Source: Sandaracinaceae bacterium (GTDB lineage: Bacteria; Myxococcota_A; Polyangia; Polyangiales; Sandaracinaceae). Taken from it: a stretch of DNA of 64,000 nucleotides. Positions 2,079-44,082 of the stretch are shown piece by piece. The notes beneath the pieces are model-generated. The model ran no database searches. It was not told where the DNA came from and was given only the letters and a program-made list of their open reading frames with translations. Location of the stretch: assembly GCA_040218145.1 (NCBI GenBank), contig JAVJQK010000076.1, forward strand, positions 186,001 through 250,000, read 5' to 3'. Every line of letters begins with the position of its first letter. The first letter of the stretch is position 1. The translations under genes were made by a program, and so were the position numbers.

Positions 2079-4472
2079 TCAGCGCCTCCGCTGGCGGTCC
2101 CGGACGAACAAGAAGAACAGGATCATCGGGCCCAGCACGCCGCCCATCTGGGGCAAGCCCGCCACGGTGCAGCCGCAGCCGCCGCGCAGGGAGCGGCCTG
2201 GCGTCACGCCTCCGTCTGCGTCCACGGGGCTCGACGCGTCGGCCGTCGCGCACGCCGCCTCGTCCACGAATCCGTCGCAGTCGTCGTCGAGGCGATTGCA
2301 GAGCTCGTCCGTGGCGTGCTCGTCGACCGCGCCGTCGCAGTCGTCATCCATCGCGTTGCACACCTCGGGCATCGAGGCCTCGTCGATCACGCCGTCGCAG
2401 TCGTCGTCGACCGCGTTGCAGATCTCCATCTCGGAGACGCAGGCGCGGCCCGCGCTGAGGATCGTCGTCCAGTAACGTGGCTCGACCCAGCCGCCGTCGT
2501 TCGTCATGTCGCCCAGCTCGATCGCGTCCCCGAAGCCGGCGCCGTCCGAGAGGTGGCAGCGCCACCCGGCGCCCGCGCGCGCGCAGAGGTCGTCGAGGCC
2601 GTCTCCGTTCAGGTCGGCGAGCCGCACCGTCTGGTAGTGGCGCGGGCGGCTCCAGCCCACGTCGTCGGCCCACGCCGGGCCCTCGAGGCCGGCCCATGCC
2701 CCGTCACGGCGCGCCCAGCAGCGCATGCCCGCGTTGGCGCGGGCGCAGAGGTCCTCCGCCCCGTCCCCGTCGAAGTCGCCGACGCGGATCGTCGCGTAGT
2801 TGGTCTCGTCGTCCCAGCCGGACTCGTTGGACAGCTCGGCCACGATCTCCGCGTCGCCGAAGCCGTCGCCGCGCGAGAGGTGACAGGACAGATCCCTCGA
2901 GTTGCGGGCGCAGACGTCGTCGCGTCCGTCGCCGTCCACGTCGAGCATGCGGATGGTGCTCCAGTACTGACGGTTGCCCCAGCCGTTGTCGTCGCTCCAG
3001 GCGGGGCCCTCGACGCGGGTGGGGAAGCCGGCGCCGTCGGAGAGCCAGCACTCGAAGCCCGCCGCGGTGCGTCCGCAGAGGTCGGCCCGGCGATCCCCGT
3101 TCACGTCCGCCATGCGGACGGTCCCGTATTGCCGGGCCGCGCCCCAGCCCGCGTCGTTCGACCACTCCGGACCGACGATGCGGGTCGCGAAGGTGGCGCC
3201 GTCGCTGAGCCAGCAGCGCACGCCGGCGTTGGCGCGCGCGCAGAGATCGTCGCGCCCGTCTCCGTCGACGTCGCCCAGGCGCAAGGTCGTGTAGTTGTCG
3301 GGCTGCCCCCAGCCCGAGTCATCGCTCAGCCCGTCCTTCCAGAGGGTCGAGGCCGCGAAGCTGTCGCCCATCGAGACGGCGCAGAACACGCCCGCGTTCG
3401 CCCGCGCGCACACGTCGGCGAGCCCGTCTCCGTTCACGTCGCCCATGCGGAGCGTCGCGTAGTTCGTCACGTCGTCCCAGCCGCTCGCGTCGCTCCAGTC
3501 CGTGGCCGCGATGGGCTCGCGCCACCCGCTCGCGTTCGAGGGCCAGCAGCGCACGCCCGAGAAGCCGCGCGCGCACACGTCCGCGGTTCCGTCTCCGTCG
3601 ATGTCGGTCGACGCGGGCGCGGCGTAGGCGGCGGGCTGCTCGTGCAGCAGCTCGATCTCGCACACGTCGCCCGAGTCGGGGGTGCCGTCGCAGTCGTCGT
3701 CGCGCCCGTTGCAGCGCTCGGGGCTCGGGGTCGGCGCGTCGCAGGCGCCCCAGCTCCCCCCCGAGCACGCCTCGCGCCCGCTGCCGCACGCGGTCGAGCA
3801 GCTCCGCGTGACGCCCTCGTCGGTGCGGCCGTCGCAGTCGTCGTCGCGCCCGTTGCAAGACTCCGCGCTCGGGCTGCAGGTGCTGCACGACGTGCCCGGC
3901 GCCTCGCGGTAGCCGCGCTGCTCGACCCAGCGGGTGCTGGAAGGTCCGCAGCGGCCCGAGTACACGTCGCGCGACGCCGCGCCCGGGCTCGGCCGGTAGC
4001 CGAGGTGGAGGTGGGGCCCGGAGCTGCTCCCGCTCGAGGCCGAGCGCCCGATGACCTGCCCGCAGCTGACGCTCGCGCCCGTGCTCACGCGCAGGGAGTC
4101 CCGCTGCATGTGACAGTAAATCGTGCGAGATCCATCCGAGTGCGTCACCGCGACGTAGTTGCCGCAGCGCCCGCCGCAGGGGTTGCCGACGTAGCCGGTG
4201 TTCGCGCAGCCGTTGTAGGTCGCGCTGACCCGCCCCGACTGCGCGGCGCGGATCTCCGTGCCTCGCGGCGTGCCGAAGTCCATGCCCGTGTGGCCGTCGT
4301 AGCAGGCGCCGCCGCAGTTGTAGTCGGTGCAGCCGCCCCCGCTCCGGTTGTCGAACCCGTAGTTGAGCCGGTAGTTCGGCGAGTACGGACGCCGGAAGCG
4401 AACCTGCGCCTCGGCGGAGCTCCAGAGGCCGAGGACACAGGCGAAGAGCGCGAAGCCGGCGAGCGCTCTCAT
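2079..4472 (-). CDS. surface M23-type peptidase with FG-GAP repeats, MopE motifs and MYXO-CTERM tail
   Basis: This 797-aa protein starts with a signal peptide ending near AEA. An M23/LytM metallopeptidase domain follows, with zinc ligands visible in HTGMDFG, the YCHM histidine and the HLHLG motif, so it probably cuts peptidoglycan cross-links or another peptide. Seven FG-GAP/VCBS-like repeats follow, each with D-x-(N/D)-GD-x-x-x-D and a CxR...C pair. Five MopE-type motifs (for example [10 protein letters not shown]) are present, two before and three after the repeats. The C-terminus has GGCGCTVAG, a hydrophobic stretch and a basic tail, which is the MYXO-CTERM sorting layout for surface anchoring. 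The ATG at 4472 overlaps the stop of the upstream lipoprotein gene (ATGA), so the two are coupled. The open frame extends further upstream, but the signal peptide decides this start. Confidence 0.88.
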
Positions 4473-18915: not shown

Positions 18916-19668
18916 TCAGTTGGGCATCGGCGCGGGCTCGTCGGTCGGCGCGGGCTCGACCACATCCTCCGGGTCCTCCGGGTCGTCCGACTCGTCCTCG
19001 TCTTCGGCGCCGCTCGCCTGCGACTTGTAGCGGAGGAAGCCGAGCGAGCGCAGGAGGCGGCGGTCCGAGATGGCGACCCGGGCGATGGCGCTCCACTCGA
19101 GGTACCAGGTCCACAGCTCCTGCTCGGCCGCCTCGTCCGCCTCGTGGTCTTCGGGCTCCGGCTCCTCGGGCGGCTCGATGCTGCCGACCCTCTCGAGCAG
19201 GCTCCGCGCCTCCGCGACGACCTCCTCGGTCAGGCCGCGGCGGGCGAGCAGCTCACGCGCGCTCTCGCCCTCCTCGCCGAGCCCCCCGTCGGCGGCGGCC
19301 CGGGGCAGCGCCTCGAGCCGCTCGAGGAAGGTCCCGACCGAGATGACGACCGCGGGCCCCTCCGTCCGCGACAGGTTGCGGAAGACGAGGTCCCGGGCCG
19401 CCGGGGCGCGCGCGGTGAGGGTCGCCTCGGCGATGGGGAACCAGCGGTTCTCCCACACGTCGAGCGCGCCCATCAGCGCGGGGTCCAGCGCGCTCGGCTG
19501 GCTGTTGAGTCGGCCGGCCGAGAGGTTGCGGAGCAGCGTCCAGCCGCGCTCGAGCTCCTCCTGGTCGAACCCGTGACGCTGCAGCACGCGGCTGACGCGC
19601 CTGTTCCGAACGCCCAAGAGAAACCGCAGCACGCGATGGGCCTTGCCTCCGATGGTGAGCTTCGCCAT
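18916..19668 (-). CDS. hypothetical helical acidic-tailed protein
   Basis: This 250-aa protein starts at ATG 19668, fixed by a strong ribosome site (GGAGAAGAG) just upstream. The first half is basic and helical (AKLTIGGKAHRVLRFLLG, RVLQRHGF); the middle has a conserved-looking DVWENRWFPIAEATL. The tail has two strongly acidic stretches (EPPEEPEPEDHEADE and EDEDESDDPEDPED). There is no signal peptide. The long mirrored repeat array lies directly upstream and could be its leader or control region. I do not recognise the family. Confidence 0.65.
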   Translation of the reverse strand: MAKLTIGGKAHRVLRFLLGVRNRRVSRVLQRHGFDQEELERGWTLLRNLSAGRLNSQPSALDPALMGALDVWENRWFPIAEATLTARAPAARDLVFRNLSRTEGPAVVISVGTFLERLEALPRAAADGGLGEEGESARELLARRGLTEEVVAEARSLLERVGSIEPPEEPEPEDHEADEAAEQELWTWYLEWSAIARVAISDRRLLRSLGFLRYKSQASGAEDEDESDDPEDPEDVVEPAPTDEPAPMPN

Positions 19669-19792
19669 GTCTCTTCTCCAGTTGACGCGCGGGCGCGCGC
19701 CGGTGTCGCCGCCGGGCCTCTCCCGACGCGATGCAGCTCCCATCGGGCAACACGTCCGTCGGTTGCGTGTCTCTCGCCCCTTTTTCTCCGGC

Positions 19793-20280
19793 GAGACGCG
19801 TCCCCCAGCCTCCGAGATGCCTCCCCCAGCCTCCGAGACGCGCCCCCCAGCCTCCCCGATGCCCTCCCCCAGCCTCCCCGATGACCTCCCCCAGCCCCGG
19901 GGACGCGCCCCCCGGCCCCCGAGACCCGTCCCCCGGCTCCTCGATCCGTTCCCCTGCCTCTCGGGCGCCGAGGGGAGCGGGGGGACCATCGCCGGGAGCC
20001 GGGGGACCATCGCCGGGAGCTGGGGGATCATCGCCGGGAGCCGGGGGGACCATTCCCGGGAGCGGGGGGACCATCGCCCGGAGCTGGGGGACCATTCACG
20101 GGAGCTGGGGGACCATTGCCGGGAGCGGGGGGACCATCGCCGGGAGCGGGGGAGAGTCTCCGCCGAGCTGGGGGGTGCTCCCCGAGCTGGGGCATTGTGT
20201 CACCGAGGTGGCCGGCCTCTCGCCCCAGACGGGGAACCTCTACGCCGAGTTCGGGGACCTCTACGCCGGGCGCCGACCGC
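19793..20280. repeat. mirrored array of about 21-bp tandem repeats
   Basis: The stretch 19669-20316 has no gene I accept. It holds about eight 21-bp C-rich units (19793-19970, core CCCCCAGCCTCCGAGATG) and then about eight G-rich units of 21-22 bp (19979-20155, core GACCATCGCCGGGAGC). The second set is the approximate reverse complement of the first, so the array is a large imperfect palindrome centred near 19975. Degenerate units of about 20-21 bp continue to about 20280. Frames are open through it because the period is a multiple of three, but the predicted peptides are low-complexity and lack a credible start. It may form a long RNA hairpin or be a protein-binding array. Confidence 0.8.
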
Positions 20281-20316
20281 CAGGCCGCGCGCTCAGCCGC
20301 CTTCGAGGCTGCGCCT

Positions 20317-20946
20317 TCAGTTCAGCTCGGCGGCTGGAATCAGTGGGGCCTCGGCGCGGCACATGTCGCAATTCTCCTTCGCCACGGACTCCCAGAGCGG
20401 ACGCACCAGCGCGGTCACCCTGGTGACACCCTCCGGCGGCGGCTGTGAGAGTCGGCTCGCAAACGCGAGGACCTCGGCCGGCGGCGGAGCCAGCTCGACC
20501 AACGGGCGGAGTGACTCACCCGTGGTCAGGATGTCCGACACGATCACGCTGGGCGCCCCCTGCACGACCGCGCCCGAGCGCAGCTCCTTCGTCGGGCGGC
20601 GTCGTCGATCCAACGCGACGACGACGAGCGAGTTGGTGGTTGTCTCTGCGACGCGCTGGGCGAGGGCGAACGCGGCAGACTCGGCGCACAGAACATTCAC
20701 ACGCGCTTCGCGCAGTTCCGCCCGCTCGACGAGCAGCTCCACGACGTCTTCCAGAAGCTCCGGCTCCCAGCCGATGGCTCGGAAGCGCAAGAAGTACGAG
20801 CTGTGCGCTCCGCTCTGCAGACCGAAGTGACCGCGGAGCAGAGCTCCAGACTCGGCTACGAGCCGCAGAACGCGTTTGGCGTCCACCCCCGTCTCCACGC
20901 CGAGCAGACGCTCCAACTGCGCCACTTCTCGTATTCGCGTGATCAT
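20317..20946 (-). CDS. orotate-phosphoribosyltransferase-like PRTase
   Basis: This 209-aa protein has the OPRT-type start (GALLRGHFGLQSGAHSSYFLR) and the PRPP-binding loop VIVSDILTTGES at 134-145. A flexible-loop region (RRRRPTKELRSG) and a C-terminal C-x-x-C (CDMC) also recall PyrE-like proteins. It should join PRPP to a base or act on a ribosyl-phosphate. It is probably not the housekeeping pyrE: it is the last gene of an operon with a nitrilase-like and a winged-helix gene, and its ATG overlaps the previous stop (ATGA). The true substrate is unknown. Confidence 0.78.
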   Translation of the reverse strand: MITRIREVAQLERLLGVETGVDAKRVLRLVAESGALLRGHFGLQSGAHSSYFLRFRAIGWEPELLEDVVELLVERAELREARVNVLCAESAAFALAQRVAETTTNSLVVVALDRRRRPTKELRSGAVVQGAPSVIVSDILTTGESLRPLVELAPPPAEVLAFASRLSQPPPEGVTRVTALVRPLWESVAKENCDMCRAEAPLIPAAELN

Positions 20947-42183: not shown

Positions 42184-44082
42184 ATGTTTCTGCGAGCCCA
42201 ACCTGCCCACGCGCGCTCTTCTCAGCGCTCCACCCGCCGCGCGGCCGCGGGACTCCTCCTGCTCGGCGCGACGCTCGCGTCGTGTGGATCCGACGCTTCG
42301 GTTCAGGACGGAGGCGCCGTCGACGGTTCGATCCGCGATGGCGCCCCGCGCGACGGAGCGCCGCCGAACACCAGCGACCCGAGCTGCGGGGACGGGGTGC
42401 GCGTACCGCCCGAGCTCTGCGATCCCGGGGTCGCGGAGCCGAACGCGGGCGCGTGCCCCACTCACTGTGATGACGGCATCGCGTGCACGCGCGACGAGCT
42501 CGTCGGTTCGGCTTGCGCCGCGCGCTGCGAGTTCACCCCCATCGACGCCTGCATGGGCGGGGACGGCTGCTGCCCCTCGGGCTGTGATGAGACCACCGAC
42601 TCCGACTGCTCGCCCACCTGCGGCGACGGCGTCGTCGACCCCCCCGAGACCTGCGACACGGCGCTGCCCGCCGGACACCCCGACGCGTGCCCCACCGCAT
42701 GCGACGACAGCGTCGCGTGCACCATGAACACCCTCGTCGGCTCCGGCTGCTCCGCCGCATGCAGCTTCACCGACATCTCCACATGCCGCGACGGCGACGG
42801 CTGCTGCCCCTCCGCCTGCGACGCCACCACCGACTCCGACTGCTCGCCCACCTGCGGCAACGGCGTCGTAGAGCCCCCCGAGACCTGCGATACCACCATC
42901 CCAACCGGCGAACCCGGCGCCTGCCCCGCTTCGTGCGACGACGCCGTCGCGTGCACCCAGGACGCCCTCGTCGGCTCCGGCTGCTCCGCCGCATGCAGCT
43001 TCACCCCGATCAGCGCGTGCCGAGACGGCGACGGCTGCTGCCCCTCCGGTTGCAGCAGCGTGTTCGACGACGACTGCGTCTGCGTGCCGGACACCTGCGC
43101 TGCGGACCAGCTGTGCGGGACGATGCCGGACGGCTGCGGGACGACCCTCACCTGCGGGCCGACGTGCGGCGAGTGGGATCCGGTCGCGAGCCTGCCGGAC
43201 GTGGTCACCTTCGCGGGCGCCCACGCGGGCCCCGGTCGAGCCGTGCTGTTCGGAGACGACTCCGTCACCAACGCTGCGGAGACGTGGGAGTACGACGCGG
43301 CCACCGACGCGTGGTCCCAGTACGCGCCGACGCCCCAGCCGGATCCCGGGAGCACAACGCCGCAGATGGCCTACGCCGGCGGCGGGATCGCGGTGCTGCA
43401 CGACCGCCACGCGGGGACCTGGGAGTACGACACCGCCACCCACACGTGGACCGAGTATCCGATGGCCGGGGGACCGTCGCGGGCACGCCACGCGCTGAGC
43501 TACGCCGGCCCGGGCCGCGTGCTCCTGTTCGGCGGGCTGCTGGCGAGCAGCGGCGGGGGCGTCGCCGATGGCACGTACCTCTACTCTACGACGACACACA
43601 CCTGGACGCTCCTCTCCACCCCCGGCGTCCACCCGAGCGCCCGGTCCCGTCATCGCATGGCGTGGCTCGGTGGGGGGCGCGTGATCCTCGCAGGGGGGGA
43701 CGTCGCCGACGCGTGGGTGTTCGACACGGCCACCGCCTCGTGGAGCACGATCACCACGCCCCCGACGACCCTCGAGGACTCCATGATGGCGCACCTCACG
43801 ATGGACCGGGTCCTGTTGTATGGCGGTCACAACGGGATGACGCCGGGGAGGAGCCGACGCTTCTACGAGTACGACGGCGGCACCGACACCTGGATCGACC
43901 GCACGGGCACCCCCGTCGATCCTTCGAGCCTCTCGGACGCCGCGATGGCGCACCTGGGACCGGGGCGCGTGCTGATGCAGGGAGGCCTCCACTGGACCGG
44001 AGCCACCTTCCGGTGGCGCGAGCGCGCGTTCGTCTTCTACGACGGAGCCGGGACGGCCACGAGCACCGACTTCGGACCGTGA
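42184..44082 (+). CDS. Cys-rich and kelch-like repeat surface lipoprotein
   Basis: This 632-aa protein has a signal peptide with lipobox LASC, an Asp/Gly linker, then three cysteine-rich repeats of about 80 residues (each with CGDGV..PPE.CD, CDD.IACT or like, and DGCCPSGCD). The repeats resemble metazoan-like disulfide modules seen in myxobacterial surface proteins. The C-terminal half carries five or six kelch-type repeats (GRVLLFGG, GRVILAGGD, DRVLLYGGH with following TWEYD, WVFD, FYEYD), forming a beta-propeller. It is probably an adhesin or binding protein. ATG 42184 follows GAGAGG. Confidence 0.85.
   Translation: MFLRAQPAHARSSQRSTRRAAAGLLLLGATLASCGSDASVQDGGAVDGSIRDGAPRDGAPPNTSDPSCGDGVRVPPELCDPGVAEPNAGACPTHCDDGIACTRDELVGSACAARCEFTPIDACMGGDGCCPSGCDETTDSDCSPTCGDGVVDPPETCDTALPAGHPDACPTACDDSVACTMNTLVGSGCSAACSFTDISTCRDGDGCCPSACDATTDSDCSPTCGNGVVEPPETCDTTIPTGEPGACPASCDDAVACTQDALVGSGCSAACSFTPISACRDGDGCCPSGCSSVFDDDCVCVPDTCAADQLCGTMPDGCGTTLTCGPTCGEWDPVASLPDVVTFAGAHAGPGRAVLFGDDSVTNAAETWEYDAATDAWSQYAPTPQPDPGSTTPQMAYAGGGIAVLHDRHAGTWEYDTATHTWTEYPMAGGPSRARHALSYAGPGRVLLFGGLLASSGGGVADGTYLYSTTTHTWTLLSTPGVHPSARSRHRMAWLGGGRVILAGGDVADAWVFDTATASWSTITTPPTTLEDSMMAHLTMDRVLLYGGHNGMTPGRSRRFYEYDGGTDTWIDRTGTPVDPSSLSDAAMAHLGPGRVLMQGGLHWTGATFRWRERAFVFYDGAGTATSTDFGP

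Follow-up and report, generated by a model that had tools for sequence, protein, structure and literature searches.

A mirrored array of 21-bp repeats and its linked gene family in a Sandaracinaceae bacterium

The repeat array in the window

The stretch of 64,000 nucleotides analysed here (the window) comes from the genome of a Sandaracinaceae bacterium and contains a mirrored array of about 21-bp repeats between two genes, which raises the question of what such an array is for and whether it belongs to one of its neighbours. The mirrored array was found at 19792-20265 (Table 1), with a repeat period of 21 bp and some steps of 22 bp. The initial annotation had counted eight units in each arm plus degenerate ones; this held for the left arm, with about 8 C-rich units, and was too low for the right arm, in which there are 9-10 good G-rich units before the degenerate ones. 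Tandem repeat analysis recovered period 21 in both arms, and Tandem Repeats Finder placed the C-rich arm at 19792-19934 (6.7 copies, 79% matches) and the G-rich arm at 19973-20152 (8.5 copies, 86% matches). The C tracts of the left arm start at 19802, 19823, 19843, 19866, 19888, 19908, 19930 and 19951, and the G tracts of the right arm at 19979, 20001, 20022, 20043, 20064, 20086, 20107, 20127, 20148 and 20170, with weaker G tracts extending to 20253. The inverted-repeat pairing between the arms is 73-86%. The chain score of the array was 17 units as compared to at most 3 in five composition-preserving shuffles, and among the 71 window segments of 900 bp a chain of at least 5 occurred in just one, which is the mirrored array itself. 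Tandem Repeats Finder, arm pairing and shuffles confirmed the array.

As the initial annotation had pointed out, a period of 21, being divisible by 3, leaves the reading frames of the array open. A coding repeat was rejected for the window array, since 22-bp steps occur in places, the neighbouring gene has its own ribosome-binding site and ATG at 19668, and the linkers between the repeated cores are free in relatives. The array folds better than its shuffles on both strands (z -4.6 and -3.5). Rfam gave no match in 19400-20700 at E <= 1, the promoter scan gave no sigma-70-like match, and four terminator-like sites were found against 0.5 expected, none of them inside the array. In another part of the window, at 42558-43048, a 234-bp unit is repeated 2.1 times with 84% matches, apparently inside a cysteine-rich coding region.

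Both neighbours were as first described, a PRTase-like gene on one side and an acidic-tailed gene with a strong ribosome site on the other. The stop codon of the PRTase-like gene lies about 50 bp outside the array, and this gene is a non-recurrent neighbour of the family described below. The acidic-tailed protein has a net charge of +8 in residues 1-60 and of -12 in its tail, and it is predicted, by a low-confidence model, to be all-helical; its single-sequence AlphaFold model was unusable (mean pLDDT 45).

Table 1. Coordinates of the window array, its flanking genes and the two further arrays of the same genome
Feature	Position	Strand	Remarks
Array-linked family gene, 250 aa, MAKLTIGGKA...	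18916..19668	-	No Pfam family; downstream of array
Leader, array to gene	19669..19791	-	RBS GGAGAAGAG directly before ATG at 19668
Left arm, 8 C-rich units	19792..19959	+	Core TCCCCC(A/G)GC(C/T)(C/T)CC; C-tract steps about 20-23 bp
Palindromic centre (dyad)	19960..19972	strandless	Sequence CTCGGGCGCCGAG
Right arm, 9-10 G-rich units	19973..20175	+	Consensus GGGAGCYGGGGGACCATCGCC; left-arm core in inverted orientation
Degenerate right-arm units	20176..20265	+	G tracts at 20189, 20231, 20253
PRTase-like gene upstream of array	20317..20946	-	Pfam Pribosyltran E 2.5e-4, below cut-off
C65 array	C65:197132-197511		Just 3' of recX-like gene (name from ORF reading)
C35 array	C35:111788-112218		Just 3' of metallo-beta-lactamase-like gene (ORF reading)

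Linkage of the arrays to a protein family

A profile built from 17 members of the family of the acidic-tailed protein detected it in 62 of 183 genomes of the order and found relatives in 35 of 377 genomes sampled from the phylum, with up to about ten paralogues in one genome. The first homologues had upstream arrays of period 21 with different cores. Arrays were detected as chains of an 8-mer with at most one mismatch and steps of 20-22 bp (and double steps), with at least five units within 900 bp. Such an array with 21-bp period lies beside 53 of the 83 family gene copies, on either side. It was found upstream of 40/81 copies and downstream of 14/78, as compared to 10/470 control segments (Fisher p 7.5e-29 and 2.9e-7, respectively). 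The 470 control segments were taken from the window, with its own array excluded, and from 20 arbitrarily placed 18-kb stretches of eight genomes, and these stretches hold no family member. No upstream array was detected at 81 copies when the period was set to 18 or 24, and none in shuffles. Among loci chosen by protein score without seeing the DNA, arrays were present at 40 of 64 copies and in 31 of 36 genomes. These counts demonstrate the linkage, with array and downstream gene as the two parts of a conserved module. The window gene matches family profile A2 at E <= 1e-6 and has its array, with a chain of 17, well above five units within 900 bp.

Exactly 21 bp separate the units in 230 of the 371 detected array steps, an excess that arises partly by construction because the detector allows steps of 20-22 bp and double steps. 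Clean two-arm mirrors make up 18 of the 54 detected arrays by this method, and many family arrays have one arm only. The 30 of 83 copies at which no array was detected include second genes of tandem pairs, copies at contig ends and others that show nothing, and several of them still have their best autocorrelation lag at 21. Besides the first homologues, the copies come from 60 further regions fetched out of more than 150 listed profile matches, mostly by score order and with some near contig ends skipped. The count of 83 excludes partial copies at contig ends or in pieces (L264-L266, L268, L269), and two gene starts were assigned manually. In one later set of fetched loci, the by-eye inspection covered those other than L384, L385 and L387-L392. 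In the genome of the window (G000), several further family copies are cut off at the ends of contigs C141, C5, C30 and C138 (L264-L266).

The window protein matches no Pfam family at E 0.001. The Pfam scan of the 17 members gave weak and mutually inconsistent matches, the best being the PT disordered repeat in the acidic tail (E 2.3e-4), and contained no Rep domain, no ParA, ParM, TubZ, ParB or RHH domain and no recognised DNA-binding domain. The best matches were at E 0.088 in PHROGs and at E 0.18 among solved structures, and PADLOC returned weak PP2C matches in 2 of 17 members (best E 0.027) and nothing convincing. All seven proteins tested weakly resembled the NCBIfam family NF052641 (PQLLE family protein) at the profile level (E 1e-6 to 0.012), but the best of these scores, 28.6 bits, is far below the 80-bit cut-off, which is exceeded in 0 of 183 genomes. 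No transposase signature was seen in the family in the NCBIfam, Pfam and PHROGs scans. In a tblastn search the window protein had no match in 72,556 plasmid records; it had no relative in 50,697 phage records, and the 14 pattern matches of the family profile in viral contigs were not confirmed. No description of the array or of the family was found in the literature searched, a body outside which most subscription papers lie, and both the protein family and its DNA element are undescribed in the libraries searched.

The only recurrent foreign neighbour of the family is a gene for a HerA/DUF87 ATPase, which follows the family gene at 11 loci in four genomes (G003 with 8 loci, G044, G051 and G013). 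DUF87 and HerA_C were above the Pfam cut-offs in the four HerA-like proteins scanned. Most family members lack a HerA-like gene beside them, and the 64 kb of the window yielded none.

Conserved cores, free linkers and remote arrays

The core and the 21-bp phase are conserved, the linkers are nearly free and the cores are specific to clades. In five species of one genus (g78, G158-G162) the arrays align unit by unit; phases 4-7, 10, 12 and 13 of 21 are identical in every unit of all species, and most linker phases agree in 0-50%. Single odd units (GTATCC, units 2 and 6) recur in each of the five species, and the agreement among species can therefore not be put down to recent slippage. Orthologues in G001 and G006 (L251 and L245) keep a TCCC/GGGA 21-bp mirrored array and have largely replaced linkers. 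Orthologous loci without both periodicity and mirror symmetry had been named as evidence against the initial annotation, and the comparison of orthologues pointed the opposite way; the pair in G001 and G006 keeps period and mirror. Within close pairs taken singly the difference between core and linker is mostly non-significant: changes affected 1/23 of core as compared to 64/246 of linker in one pair (p 0.02), and 1/69 as compared to 5/113 (p 0.41) and 0/19 as compared to 20/260 (p 0.38) in further pairs. Among clades, the core TCCCCC(N)GCTCC goes with LTIGQKA proteins, GCCGGAA(C/G) and related forms go with ETLExTP proteins, and other cores occur elsewhere. Array similarity rises with protein identity, from a mean of 0.30 below 35% to 0.72 above 70%, in the 41 of 54 detected arrays that were used (main chain at least 4.5). 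The Spearman correlation was 0.45 for pairs below 70% and was reached in 0 of 2000 permutations; it is consistent with recognition and is no proof of it, because linked inheritance alone could give it.

A search for the same core elsewhere in the genome, which had been proposed as a check, brought up two further oriented arrays of the window type in the 11.06 Mb and 148 contigs of G000, on C65 and C35 (Table 1). The C65 array sits in a convergent intergenic region, and a lipoprotein-like gene lies about 200 bp downstream of the C35 array. Each of the three arrays starts within about 50 bp of the stop codon of its upstream gene. Over 157 columns around the centre CTCGGGCGCCGAG, the window array can be aligned to the central parts of the C65 and C35 arrays at a mean column identity of 88% (four sequences). 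The linkers of the two arms are mutually non-complementary. The three arrays form an oriented family because their centres align and each arm keeps its own linker type. The end of the metallo-beta-lactamase-like gene recurs as an imperfect direct repeat of 33 bp on the two sides of the C35 array (L010:3240-3272 and 3798-3830), an arrangement that looks like the duplication of part of the gene end across the array. To the right of the C65 array (L009:3620-4160) there is a dense tract of 6/12/24-bp repeats of GCGGCA/GCGGGA/GCGGAT, and tracts of this kind make up most of the 50 matches in the assembly of the sister strain. This second strain of the species (G182), the sequence of which is identical to a contig of Sandaracinaceae bacterium MED-G138, has the C35 array between nearly identical flanks, with one arm re-homogenised to a different unit; in the other arm, changes affected 0/73 of core and 5/120 of linker (p 0.16). 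The window locus was not found in the G182 assembly.

Remote arrays were also found in other genomes. In genus g78 the core-pair pattern had 33 matches, 31 of them spaced exactly 21 bp, as compared to 3 for the reversed-pattern control. All five species also share, ahead of a lipoprotein gene, a remote array that has the same palindromic centre; the ORF of this gene was read in one species and is sulfatase-modifying-factor-like by ORF reading alone. At the array next to the family gene, the homology of G162 to its four relatives ends at the outer edge of the array and the end of the gene, and among the other four species it extends beyond array and gene in both directions, apart from an unaligned gap immediately next to the array. 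Arrays with the window-type core stand in frame inside genes in other genomes (L218, L219, L386), in one case inside the Pro-rich linker of a predicted envelope protein with the centre and a reverse unit still present (L219, L386). Array function and coding can thus coexist in one stretch. Array contexts include positions upstream of a gene, downstream of a gene, between convergent genes (C65) and in frame inside an ORF. The triple-core pattern gave at least 120 mixed loci in GTDB genomes, with little new beyond the MED-G138 contig and one Sorangium record. Counts of the core pattern over the 183 genomes were left unused, as many matches are chance or coding matches and the reversed-pattern control was about as busy in several genomes. 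Among the loci read (L013-L018, L020, L022 and L030), several are coding or chance repeats, and L013, L030, L020 and L022 resemble relatives of the window array. In G088 (L220:1560-2288), 34 C-rich units, each about 21-22 bp long (GCTTCCCCCAGCACGAGGTCGT), follow one another in a chain. Array-like stretches directly after genes outside the known family (L231:1480-2000 in G002 and L232:1490-1900 in G001) are possibly remote arrays of these two genomes.

Proposed function and competing explanations

Taken together, the comparison of loci makes it probable that the array is a set of helically phased recognition sites for its cognate family protein, and this protein, the candidate in each module, is most likely the binder. 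The protein-binding role is the best supported of the three that the initial annotation had offered, and agrees with the conserved core and spacing, the free linkers and the varied contexts including an ORF. The array is indifferent to coding, strand and position, and therefore fits recognition of DNA rather than of RNA or protein. About 17 copies of a core of about 11 bp would point, in two arms, to the palindromic centre, and the cores would face the same side of the helix because they are spaced two helical turns apart. The family protein most likely sits on neighbouring copies of its own core and builds up an ordered nucleoprotein complex, beside its own gene as well as on remote arrays that share the core, with the HerA-like translocase as a putative partner in some genomes. 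Candidate purposes of such a complex would be regulation of its own gene, organisation, segregation or tethering of DNA, or loading of the translocase. More tentatively, the module could be a self-addressed DNA-handling system that combines a paralogue-specific address with its reader protein, remote copies and polar docking sites for a HerA-type translocase, and that serves segregation, transfer or domain organisation; a cell would then hold several mutually orthogonal addresses, each protein reading only its own.

The array may also be a long operator or enhancer bound by an unrelated regulator with a small regulon, the family protein being merely one regulated product. The upstream position in 40/81 cases, the conserved g78 remote arrays just upstream of the lipoprotein gene and the C35 array about 200 bp upstream of a lipoprotein-like gene all agree with this, but we regard it as rather unlikely: the array is downstream of the gene in 14/78 copies, the C65 array lies between convergent genes, one remote array is inside an ORF, and clade-specific cores would demand a separate regulator for each paralogue. 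An action at the level of RNA is improbable. The arms could pair into a ladder-like hairpin, a bidirectional terminator or a Rho- or R-loop-prone stretch, as transcription entering from either side would run into the C-rich arm before the other, and both the fold on the two strands and the start of the three G000 arrays close to an upstream stop codon are in line with it. The long leader RNA of the initial annotation shares this support from folding and does not apply to the family as a whole, since many of its arrays consist of a single arm, in which pairing is impossible. Moreover, the linkers of the two arms do not complement each other, the cores are not always C/G tracts (GCCGGAAC, GATGCACC), one copy is inside a translated ORF and Rfam gave no match.

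The explanation that we hold least probable of all is a neutral minisatellite, produced by slippage in G-rich DNA and lying beside the family by chance or at a mutational hot spot. High-G+C genomes are rich in minisatellites, homogenisation of the arms is seen within loci, and the two strains differ coherently in one arm; slippage, the third role first offered, occurs as a by-product, but it leaves the conservation of units across species unexplained. It is opposed by the enrichment of 40/81 over 10/470, which vanishes at periods 18 and 24, and by units that keep their identity across five species while the linkers diverge. The gene might instead be moved as a mobile cassette, with the array as its end or recognition site, in the way of a transposon or a REP/RAYT pair. 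Homology limited to array and gene in G162, the remote copies without the gene and the direct repeat around the C35 array speak for such a cassette, yet it seems improbable to us, as synteny at this place extends over four of the five g78 species, just about three arrays per genome were seen, the flanking repeat is present at one of three loci, and neither a transposase signature nor an occurrence in the 72,556 plasmid or 50,697 phage records was found. The RNA, minisatellite, coding and mobile-cassette explanations are all less likely than a landing array for a protein.

Several known systems rely on short repeated sites. The iteron arrays of plasmid replication proteins are direct repeats of about two helical turns beside the gene of their binder, sometimes with a second array elsewhere. 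The window-type arrays likewise have repeats of about two turns adjoining a linked gene, but they are chromosomal, have no Rep domain in the protein and no match in plasmid records, their arms are mirrored about a palindrome, and they have remote copies, one of them inside a gene. The centromere arrays of plasmid partition systems consist of phased short sites before the gene of a small DNA-binding protein. Phased short sites in front of the gene of a small protein are found here as well, whereas ParA, ParB and RHH domains are lacking, the adjacent NTPase is only HerA-like and limited to four genomes, and many family paralogues with different cores occur in one genome. In CRISPR and TIGR arrays a conserved short repeat alternates with variable stretches. 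The conserved core and variable linkers are similar to this, but there is no Cas or Tas gene among the recurrent neighbours and no Rfam match, the arrays have two inverted arms, and the linkers look like drifting sequence. The superfamily of the HerA-like ATPase includes translocases that read short repeats. One of them is TraB, the FtsK-family translocase of Streptomyces conjugation, which recognises 8-bp repeats at clt, and chromosomal clt sequences less often (PMC5365140). The likeness lies in the short repeats and in the HerA-like gene of some family loci, and the difference in a linked protein that is small, predicted to be helical and not a translocase, in the 21-bp phasing and mirror layout, and in a translocase gene beside just 11 loci in four genomes. 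The working principle resembles that of iteron, centromere and clt arrays, and the tests of membership placed the module in neither the iteron nor the centromere class and gave mixed signs for the clt type, with the translocase gene present at some loci and not found in the window; if the binding is true, it could be called a variant of the iteron or operator-array principle.

A family present in about one third of the sampled genomes of the order and absent from Pfam has been overlooked along with the conserved DNA element that belongs to it: the element resembles a chance minisatellite of GC-rich DNA, and assemblies are prone to breaking at it; the breaks seem to fall at family genes and arrays. 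If the protein reads the array, the family would supply dozens of orthogonal pairs of protein and site, each gene with repeated copies of its specificity code next to it, and the recognition rules would therefore be directly testable. If the link to HerA is functional, the module would represent a new system of DNA translocation or chromosome organisation in bacteria whose genomes are very large, and even as an operator array it would be unusual in its length, phasing and mirror layout. A single mirrored array of 6 + 12 units with a GACCCGCCCCC core lies between two divergent family genes in the sister strain (L267:1-2059), and this divergent two-gene layout is perhaps the ancestral one.
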